Positions 2,938 through 28,853 of a DNA stretch of 47,076 nt are shown here, piece by piece (positions within the stretch are counted from its first letter, which is position 1; each line of letters opens with the position of its first letter). The DNA lies in contig CANKCB010000016.1 in NCBI GenBank assembly GCA_947480335.1, forward strand, positions 1-47,076. The letters run 5' to 3'. The notes below the pieces were generated by a model, which made no database searches, was not told the DNA's origin, and saw only the letters and a list, made by a program, of their open reading frames with translations. Made by a program: the position numbers and the translations under genes. The DNA comes from Gammaproteobacteria bacterium. Its GTDB lineage: Bacteria > Pseudomonadota > Gammaproteobacteria > Eutrophobiales > Eutrophobiaceae.

Positions 2938-3216
2938 GTGGCAAGATCAGTTAAAAAAGGTCCTTTTGTTGATCATCACTTGATCAAAAAAGTCGATGCC
3001 GTTGTTGCCAATAACGACAAGCGGCCAATAAAAACATGGTCACGTCGTTCGATGATATTACCTGAAATGGTCGGTTTGACTATTTCGGTACATAACGGTC
3101 GGGATCACATGCCGATACATATCAGTGAAAATATGGTCGGGCATAAGCTCGGTGAATTTGCTGCAACACGTACGTTCCGTGGTCATACAGCAGCAGACAA
3201 GAAAGTAGCTAAATAA
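2938..3216 (+). CDS. rpsS: 30S ribosomal protein S19
   Basis: S19 (92 residues) pairs with S13 in the head of the small subunit near the A-site tRNA. It begins [14 protein letters not shown] and ends with the basic tail expected of the family. The start is GTG, preceded by ACGGGAGAA. It lies 12 bases after rplB and 18 before rplV. Confidence 0.97.
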
Positions 3217-25840: not shown

Positions 25841-26128
25841 TTATTCTATGACCCGGGGAACCAGATAAAAGCCATTTTCCGTTTCCGGCGCAATTTGCTG
25901 GAATTTGGCACGTTGATCCGTCTCGGTGACGACGTCAGGACGCAAACGGGCATGGATATCCAACGGATGCGCGAGTGGCGCCACCGTGTCTGTCTGCACC
26001 GCCTGCATCTGTTCCACCAGCCCGAGTATGCTACCCAATGCCTGTTGGTACTGGGCTAATTCATCCTCCTTGACGGCCAGTCTTGCCAGCTTGGCAATTG
26101 TGCGGATATCTGACTGTTGTAGAGACAT
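25841..26128 (-). CDS. gatC: Asp-tRNA(Asn)/Glu-tRNA(Gln) amidotransferase subunit C
   Basis: GatC (95 residues) wraps around GatA and stabilises the GatAB complex. The family pattern is visible: IRTIAKLARLAVKEDELAQY at the start, LGSILGLVEQMQAV in the middle, and a proline/arginine-containing end FYLVPRVIE. I use the ATG at 26128, with AAGGAA eight bases upstream; an in-frame TTG one codon earlier is less likely. First gene of gatCAB. Confidence 0.95.
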   Translation of the reverse strand: MSLQQSDIRTIAKLARLAVKEDELAQYQQALGSILGLVEQMQAVQTDTVAPLAHPLDIHARLRPDVVTETDQRAKFQQIAPETENGFYLVPRVIE

Positions 26129-27458
<1,330 letters not shown>

Positions 27459-27468
27459 TATCCGGCAC

Positions 27469-27483
27469 GGGGGATTTACTATT
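27469..27483 (+). promoter_or_regulatory. Ribosome binding site that decides the mreC start
   Basis: GGGGGA at 27469–27474 can pair with the CCUCC of 16S rRNA with one G–U pair, and lies six bases before ATT 27481. It is too far from the in-frame CTG (27490) and GTG (27517). This favours an AUU start, a codon known from E. coli infC to lower and regulate initiation. Confidence 0.6.
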
Positions 27484-28368
27484 AAAACACTGTTTCTCAA
27501 AGGCCCTTCAACCAATGTGAAAACGGTACTGTTCGTGGTGATCTCTATCAGTTTGATGATTATTGATCACCGCGCAGGACATCTCGAAGCCGTCAGGTCT
27601 GTCCTGTCCACCATGGTTTACCCGCTTCAATATGTTGTAAATATGCCGGTGCAAGCGAGTCACTGGATTTCGCAGTCGGTTGTCTCACAAAAAAAACTGA
27701 TCGAGGAAAACGAACGTCTGCGGCAGGAGCATTTGTTGCTCAGTTCAAAACTGCAACGCTTTGATGTGCTCACTGAAGAAAACAAGCGATTGAGAAAACT
27801 GCTTGAGTCAACCGCCAACCTGGGTGAAACAGTCGACAAGGTTTTGATTGCCGAACTGGTAGCTGTTGAAATGGAAACCTTTCGCAAACAAATCGTGATT
27901 AACAAGGGTGAACGTGAAAACGTTTATTCAGGTCAACCTGTCGTGGATGCGAATGGCATCATGGGACAGGTGGTCCATGTGAGCCCGTATTCGAGTACAG
28001 TCATTCTGATTACCGATTCGACCCATGCGATGCCAGTGCAGATTAATCGCAGTGGTTTGCGTACAGTTGCTGTTGGTACCGGGCAGAACGGAATATTGCT
28101 GCTGGAAAATCTGCCGACCAATTCCGATATCGTTGTCGGCGATCTGGTGATTTCATCCGGACTCGGTGACCGGTTCCCCAAGGGCTATCCGGTAGGAATG
28201 GTCAGCAAGATCAGTATGGAGCCAGGCGAAGCGTTTGCGATGGTGCAGGTGACTCCCAGTGCCAAACTGGAACAGAGTCGTGAAGTATTGCTGGTATGGC
28301 CGCACAATGAAAAGTTGAATATGAATGCGACCACGGATGTAACGACAGATGTTAAAGCGGTGCCATGA
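27481..28368 (+). CDS. mreC: Rod shape-determining protein MreC, apparent AUU start
   Basis: MreC is a periplasmic coiled-coil protein anchored by one N-terminal helix that links MreB to PBP2–RodA. After the transmembrane segment (VLFVVISISLMII) come a coiled coil (EENERLRQEHLLLSSKL) and the double beta-barrel domain with DSTHAMPVQINRSGLR and GDLVISSGLGDRFPKGYPVG. No ATG opens the reading frame. The first usual start, GTG at 27517, would cut off KTLFLKGPSTN, which aligns residue for residue with E. coli MreC (MKPIFSRGPS). The codon opposite that methionine is ATT at 27481, with GGGGGA six bases upstream. I therefore place the start there, giving 295 residues; GTG 27517 (283 residues) is the fallback. 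Confidence 0.9.
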   Translation: MKTLFLKGPSTNVKTVLFVVISISLMIIDHRAGHLEAVRSVLSTMVYPLQYVVNMPVQASHWISQSVVSQKKLIEENERLRQEHLLLSSKLQRFDVLTEENKRLRKLLESTANLGETVDKVLIAELVAVEMETFRKQIVINKGERENVYSGQPVVDANGIMGQVVHVSPYSSTVILITDSTHAMPVQINRSGLRTVAVGTGQNGILLLENLPTNSDIVVGDLVISSGLGDRFPKGYPVGMVSKISMEPGEAFAMVQVTPSAKLEQSREVLLVWPHNEKLNMNATTDVTTDVKAVP

Positions 28369-28853
28369 TGAACAGACAACACAACGGTGGTGCCATCATC
28401 ATAATGAGTTTCGTGATTGCCTATATGCTCACAGCGATGCCACTGCCGGATTTTGCCCTGAACTGGCGTCCGGCCTGGGTGGTGATTGTATTGATCTACT
28501 GGTGTTTGGCTATACCCGATCGCGTCAGCGTGGGAATTGCCTGGTTACTGGGTCTGTTGTTGGATGTACAGCAGGGAACATTATTTGGTCAGAATGCGAT
28601 TGAACTGACCCTGATTGCCTATGTGATTGTCAGAATGCATCAACGCGTGCGGGTGTTTCCGCTGGTGCAACAGGCCATGCTGGTGTGCCTGTTATTGCTG
28701 GCGTCACAACTATTTACCTTGTGGGTTCGGGCGATGTTGGGTTTCCCGCCGCAGGACTGGACGTACTGGGCTCCGGCATTTACCAGTATGCTAATCTGGC
28801 CATGGTTATTTATCATACTCCGCGATGTCAGGCGGAAGTATCACGTGTTTTGA
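28365..28853 (+). CDS. mreD: Rod shape-determining protein MreD
   Basis: MreD (162 residues) is a very hydrophobic inner-membrane protein of the elongasome with about five membrane segments. It contains the family-typical PDFALNWRPAWVVIVLIYW and LGLLLDVQQGTLFGQNAIEL. The start overlaps the mreC stop by four bases (ATGA). Confidence 0.94.
   Translation: MMNRQHNGGAIIIMSFVIAYMLTAMPLPDFALNWRPAWVVIVLIYWCLAIPDRVSVGIAWLLGLLLDVQQGTLFGQNAIELTLIAYVIVRMHQRVRVFPLVQQAMLVCLLLLASQLFTLWVRAMLGFPPQDWTYWAPAFTSMLIWPWLFIILRDVRRKYHVF

Follow-up and report, generated by a model that had tools for sequence, protein, structure and literature searches.

AUU, AUC or AUA as the probable start of mreC across gammaproteobacterial families, with possible control of MreC dose through IF3

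Non-canonical start codons are already known in bacteria, in infC, sigR and pcnB. Escherichia coli pcnB shares an AUU start with the mreC gene described here; Binns and Masters (2002) are reported to have found that this codon restricts synthesis of a protein probably harmful in excess. The gene infC, which encodes IF3, is autoregulated by IF3 and starts at ATT in E. coli and ATC in Streptomyces; an AUU, AUC or AUA start (hereafter AUH) is what infC and mreC have in common. Very few bacterial genes starting at codons other than AUG, GUG or UUG have been characterized experimentally, and IF3 discriminates against starts of this kind (PMC5472188). Streptomyces sigR resembles mreC in having a non-canonical start in one of two interacting operon partners, together with a strong Shine-Dalgarno site. 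In that paper the sigR start is conserved in the genus, misannotated in genomes and responsible for the partner ratio: GTC sets the amount of product relative to RsrA, and IF3 represses both this start and infC (PMC5472188). sigR differs in using GTC or GTT rather than ATH, in belonging to another phylum, and in that its IF3 dependence was demonstrated, whereas for mreC such dependence is expected by analogy. The E. coli K-12 mreC is an orthologue with the same operon order, and its MKPIFSRGPS matches IKTLFLKGPS of the gene studied here residue for residue, but it starts at ATG behind a weak Shine-Dalgarno site (-3.0 kcal/mol). To the known non-canonical starts mreC adds unusual breadth. A search of the open literature, which covers few of the subscription papers, turned up no report of mreC starting at a non-canonical codon.

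The window, by which we mean the whole 47,076-nucleotide stretch analyzed (contig CANKCB010000016.1 of assembly GCA_947480335.1), holds mreB, mreC and mreD in that order, identified with NCBIfam and Pfam models. The features are as follows.

26412..27458, + strand: mreB, 348 aa, ATG start, TAG stop at 27456-27458 (NF010539 539 bits, TIGR00904 528 bits; open reading frame)
27445..27447, + strand: TGA, last in-frame stop ahead of the mreC frame (sequence)
27469..27474, + strand: GGGGGA, probable Shine-Dalgarno site, followed by the six bases TTTACT and then ATT (sequence; strong sites are usual for AUH-started mreC)
27481..27483, + strand: ATT (AUU), very probable initiation codon of mreC (conservation of the aligned codon; alignment with M1 of E. 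coli MreC)
27481..28368, + strand: mreC, 295 aa counted from AUU (TIGR00219 218.5 bits, cut-off 92.75; PF04085)
27484..27516, + strand: mreC codons 2-12, conserved N-terminus with K2, F5 and GPS (column conservation in 42 AUH-started sequences; codon-position pattern in Pseudomonas)
27517..27519, + strand: GTG, probably a false start, chosen by the mechanical ORF finder (loci differ in where their first downstream NUG lies)
28365..28853, + strand: mreD, its ATG overlapping the mreC stop (TIGR03426 114 bits; open reading frame)

The window gene is an mreC orthologue both by its score above the model cut-off and by its place inside mreBCD. Its frame is open from stop to stop over 27448-28368, none of the 11 codons between TGA 27445-27447 and ATT 27481 is ATG, GTG or TTG, and ATT 27481 is the only start this frame allows for the conserved N-terminus. 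The codons that follow, AAA ACA CTG TTT CTC AAA GGC CCT TCA ACC AAT, read KTLFLKGPSTN. A first-pass annotation made from the letters alone had proposed the AUU start, with GGGGGA six bases before ATT 27481 and GTG 27517 as the codon that gene finders would take instead; each of these positions is correct in the sequence. It had also described a gapless N-terminal alignment with E. coli MreC in which ATT falls on the initiator, and this was borne out: residue 1 counted from 27481 aligns with M1 of the E. coli K-12 protein, the first 117 residues align without a gap, and identity is 39% over 273 columns. Like infC, then, the window mreC has AUH at the position of its orthologues' initiator methionine. 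The mechanical ORF list does begin the gene at GTG (27517..28368, 283 aa), a choice that removes the conserved codons 2-12. We conclude from the sequence comparison that mreC of this bacterium very probably starts with fMet-tRNA at AUU 27481, with GGGGGA as its Shine-Dalgarno site.

A base error at 27481 is unlikely, as ATT is shared by the two nearest genomes, L029 and L035, whose MreC is 80-82% identical. For the mreC start of the window, a conserved RNA structure was considered in which the mreB stop region pairs with GGA..TACTATT; the fold has a z of only -1.5, with 17 of 200 shuffles folding equally well, and for this reason no such structure is claimed. Upstream of mreB, on the minus strand at 25841-26131, an ORF listed as MMSLQQSD... 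begins with TTG followed by a Met codon, which makes the second codon the likelier start.

We searched 58 genomes, including the window's own, with an MreC family query, and 57 had a match; 51 loci were examined (the window, 30 from a first set and 20 from a second). The 36 loci from the window's own family carry ATT (25), ATC (7) or ATA (4) at the aligned codon; one more genome of this family, with a partial MreC match, stands outside this count. ATG at the same place in close relatives, which the first-pass annotation had expected as support for the site, occurs in 0/36; its AUU start is instead backed by AUH in 36/36. Of 370 gammaproteobacterial genomes in a class search, 341 had a match, and 84 class loci (L051-L134) were taken from about 150 best-scoring places, mostly one per family. 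Across the resulting 135 loci from 86 families, AUH stands at the aligned codon in 91 (ATT 46, ATC 31, ATA 14), making it more frequent than any other mreC start codon among the class loci sampled, and no local rarity. By family the count is 46/86, of which 44 have AUH only and two are mixed. The remaining loci have ATG (10), GTG (1), another codon exactly there (10, several of which have ATH, ATG or GTG one to four codons off) or an N-terminus that could not be aligned (23). Among 20 further loci from families already sampled, 11 have AUH at the aligned codon (L336 by extrapolation). Judged from these alignments, AUU, AUC and AUA are interchangeable at the mreC start across the 46 of 86 families sampled. 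In family f109, one locus (L105) has GTT at the mreC start position with no ATG, GTG or TTG from the in-frame stop to GTT, and another member (L326) has ATT; L105 is possibly a GUU start, comparable to the sigR GUU reported in two Streptomyces species.

These loci bear on whether the protein could extend further upstream, through an in-frame upstream start or stop readthrough, with the Ile internal. An upstream in-frame NUG is present in 9/91 AUH loci, as that reading needs, but in the other 82, the window among them, no ATG, GTG or TTG lies between the in-frame stop and AUH, and no canonical start could yield the conserved N-terminus. In 21/91 loci (13 families) just one to three sense codons separate AUH from the stop before it; each of the three kinds of stop occurs among these loci, and no other codon there is consistent as a start. 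By-eye comparison of the printed sequences of the window and L029 found a 1-nt indel between mreB and ATT with the downstream frame kept; the upstream reading frame is consequently not conserved even between close relatives. With the upstream codons of Pseudomonas also showing no coding pattern, an upstream extension is extremely improbable.

A profile built from an alignment of 42 AUH-started sequences was used to scan contigs, and the best 80 of 586 confirmed stretches were read; all are from Pseudomonas, Stutzerimonas and close relatives. AUH is the aligned codon in 80/80 (ATT 60, ATC 18, ATA 2), and 77/80 have no upstream in-frame ATG, GTG or TTG. A separate reading of the 30 best-scoring loci among 97 matching Pseudomonas-family genomes, which may overlap in species with the 80, gave ATC 27 and ATT 3, with no upstream NUG in 25/30. 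Across the 80 loci, mreC codons 1, 2, 3, 5 and 7 change at base 3 only, and codons upstream of AUH change at every base unless they lie near GAGGAG in the Shine-Dalgarno site. In Pseudomonas, coding constraint starts exactly at the AUH codon. The neighboring genes served as controls: mreB has ATG in 79/79 assessable loci (one locus holds only a partial mreB, and the ATG of L164 precedes the aligned place by one codon), and the first start codon in the mreD frame is ATG in 76, GTG in 2 and TTG in 1 of 79. The other genes of the operon thus do not use AUH.

The same constraint weighs on the possibility that the true start is a downstream NUG, GTG 27517 in the window, and that the preceding codons (KTLFLKGPSTNVK or equivalents) are untranslated. 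GTG 27517 is the first canonical start in the window frame, and a published Pseudomonas aeruginosa protein model begins at such a GTG. Against it stand the amino-acid constraint at codons 2-9 in the 80 loci and, in the 42 AUH-started sequences, an invariant F5 and an almost invariant K2 and R14; across the 91 loci the distance from AUH to the first NUG after it ranges from 2 to 97 codons, and the position of that NUG is not conserved. We consider a downstream start very improbable.

The published P. aeruginosa model also gives the predicted mis-start a real counterpart, since its numbering begins at a GTG 16 codons after ATC. In PMC8137920, the key residues of P. aeruginosa PAO1 MreC are Pro114, Phe115, Arg175, Glu188 and Arg190, and the cytoplasmic part together with the membrane region is said to lie within the first 14 residues. 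Locus L245, from a genome inferred to be P. aeruginosa, encodes an MreC that matches PDB 6zlv at all 176 residues. Counted from ATC in L245, the key residues are 130, 131, 191, 204 and 206, a constant offset of 16; residue 1 of the published numbering then falls on a GTG within the membrane helix. The comparison suggests that the published model lacks its 16 N-terminal residues and that the true beginning is missing. A TAG lies three codons ahead of ATC in L245 with no NUG between; the codon before ATC is also ATC, so the exact ATC start in P. aeruginosa is ambiguous. The constructs named in PMC8137920 run to residue 330, a mismatch with the 328 residues that L245 gives from GTG.

Shine-Dalgarno strength differs with the start codon. 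With each of 46 families represented by its mean, sites ahead of AUH-started mreC average -7.4 kcal/mol; random positions give -3.2, and sites ahead of ATG- or GTG-started mreC average -3.8 (n = 11; p 0.0002 versus AUH). With 16 more loci, taking the strongest site among the in-frame ATG and GTG codons, the difference between AUH and ATG/GTG has p 5e-6. AUH-started mreC therefore has the strong, well-spaced site of infC-type genes. The pattern fits two routes to a modest output, in which either a weak start codon follows a good site or a good codon follows a weak site, and a strong site could also be a mere requirement for any output from AUH.

In a rival reading AUH is an old and nearly neutral accident: an ancestral change from AUG to AUH was offset by a strong Shine-Dalgarno site, with no regulation, and the pair persists as each part alone is costly to change. 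The association of strong sites with AUH is in its favor. So is the distribution that a single ancient origin would leave, with AUH over the whole class tree and none recognized in 21 loci from other classes. Those 21 loci, read by eye without a codon-by-codon tally from 74 matching genomes of other proteobacterial classes, lacked the N-terminal motif. In a quick tree of 117 rows AUH is spread across the class, with 27 changes among ATT, ATC and ATA, or 35 with ATG included; the root is not fixed, so gains and losses of AUH are not told apart. The 85 assigned rows of the 117 needed 9 changes between AUH and NUG, with 44 of 500 shuffles at or below this number, and clustering on these rows was rejected as not clearly beyond the shuffles. 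With 22 further loci read by eye the tree needed 16 changes; shuffles averaged 24.1, and 0 of 500 were at or below 16.

A neutral accident fits less well with the absence of ATG, which is one change away and is used in several lineages, yet occurs in 0/36 loci of the window's family and 0/80 of Pseudomonas and close relatives. The aligned base changed among T, C and A 8 times in the family and 6 times in the Pseudomonas set, although a conserved Ile would give the same. A conserved internal Ile predicts the same limitation of base 3 to T, C and A, which is for that reason not evidence alone, and we dropped it as sole evidence against AUG. The Shine-Dalgarno sites of ATG- and GTG-started genes are also weak, as though output were kept low with either kind of start. 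On this balance we regard a neutral accident as rather unlikely. MreB-MreC fusion was also considered for L067 and L073, whose open frames are very long, and rejected as chance opening in GC-rich DNA; by eye, L067 has its mreB stop in another frame.

Overall, the best explanation, and in our judgment a probable one, is an AUU, AUC or AUA start of mreC combined with dose control through a codon that IF3 discriminates. IF3 would act against the near-cognate AUH start, and with the strong Shine-Dalgarno site MreC output from the mRNA common with mreB would be modest and dependent on IF3 activity, as for infC and Streptomyces sigR. For the regulatory role taken by itself, in which AUH and a strong site together keep MreC modest and IF3-dependent, we judge the case evenly balanced. 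IF3 tuning of MreC dose is plausible from the infC and sigR analogy, the dosage sensitivity of E. coli MreC and the Shine-Dalgarno pattern, and from these we infer the IF3 dependence, the low output and a benefit for cell shape. In E. coli grown in rich medium, excess MreC gives shorter and wider cells, and MreD co-expression suppresses at least the shortening, as reported in PMC7793260. In E. coli, MreC made from its AUG start is reported at about twice MreD and PBP2; MreC is then not the scarcest partner there, which counts against a simple low-output reading. Any regulation must also be dispensable in some lineages, given ATG or GTG at the place in 11/135 loci, and ATG in E. coli.

The parallel with infC is limited by the gene product. 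As MreC is not an initiation factor, it cannot close an autoregulatory loop, any effect of IF3 would be one-way, and mreC falls outside the class of AUU genes whose product is the discriminating factor. As a positive control we examined infC in 50 of 93 matching class genomes: ahead of the IF3 motif, 36/50 carry AUH and lack any NUG, and 14/50 hold some NUG, several of these inside or near the motif. These counts are rough because the script did not find the IF3 motif in all loci, and a few of the 14 may truly start at NUG. In the window's own genome (locus L281, contig 11, 54500-55600) an ATC is the second codon after the in-frame stop of infC (HIVVEKQNRLNEEI), and infC there appears to start at AUC.

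If these starts are right, a cell-shape gene carries an AUH start across dozens of families and in Pseudomonas, and a one-base change can test whether initiation-factor activity is linked to cell elongation. For annotation, gene finders limited to ATG, GTG and TTG will mis-start mreC wherever the start is AUH. In the structural literature, P. aeruginosa MreC would be numbered from inside the membrane helix, without the 16 preceding residues.

Many Pseudomonas loci have further predicted elements between mreB and mreC.

Just upstream of position 3001 in loci L151, L156-L163, L165-L169 and L171-L214: leader ORF
2984-3020 in L161, and equivalents: predicted 9-bp hairpin, in which codons 3-5 pair with the mreC Shine-Dalgarno site and AUU lies in the loop

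The leader ORFs (e.g. MNKENICLGGAAY and MNKHSKIHASLEGAAH) are 30, 36, 39, 42, 48 or 60 nt long, and their UAA stop overlaps the mreC AUU. They raise the alternative of coupled reinitiation at AUH after mreB, or after the short leader ORF, with start-codon discrimination relaxed. The gap from the mreB stop to AUH has a median of 43 nt (90 loci) and is 22 nt in the window, but gaps reach 377 nt, and in the window's family a gap of 14-36 nt in 29/36 loci leaves little room for a leader. A leader frame running from ATG to the TAA in ATTAA is present in 58/60 ATT loci, against 3 and 0 in the other frames, and it passes through the hairpin predicted to pair with the Shine-Dalgarno site. Any ATT with AA after it contains TAA, and the overlap of stop and start alone thus means nothing. 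ATG within 69 nt of the start, open or not, occurs by frame in 58, 37 and 6 of the 60 loci, and the 37 in the second frame weaken the case. In the 20 ATC or ATA loci of the same set, for which one frame was examined, no leader ORF has its stop at the mreC start. Coupled reinitiation is in our estimate unlikely.

For the hairpin, each pair is kept in 54-60 of the 60 ATT loci, z is -3.2 in L161 and -1.8 in L165, and mreC codon 4 is CTT in 54/60 loci versus 4.4% of other Leu codons. Double changes occurred in 3/17 predicted pairs of the Pseudomonas leader and in none of the Shine-Dalgarno stem, so the hairpin rests on pair retention and the codon 4 CTT bias. The species are closely related, and we treat the predicted leader and hairpin as a lead, not a result, and as not applicable to the window. 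A broader form of the preferred dose-control reading is tentative and less likely than not: mreC may be, with infC, a class-wide IF3-throttled gene whose AUH was kept since early in the class and ties MreC amount, and through it cell elongation, to the state of the initiation machinery. Many Pseudomonas would add a three-part translational switch made up of a leader ORF, a hairpin that conceals the Shine-Dalgarno site and carries AUU in its loop, and an overlapping leader stop. Elsewhere between mreB and mreC, at about 2890-2920 in L161 and in several Pseudomonas, a strong hairpin-like sequence, CAGGCAGCACTTTGCAGTGCTGCCTG, was seen by eye with no T run; it might influence mreB-mreC mRNA ratios.
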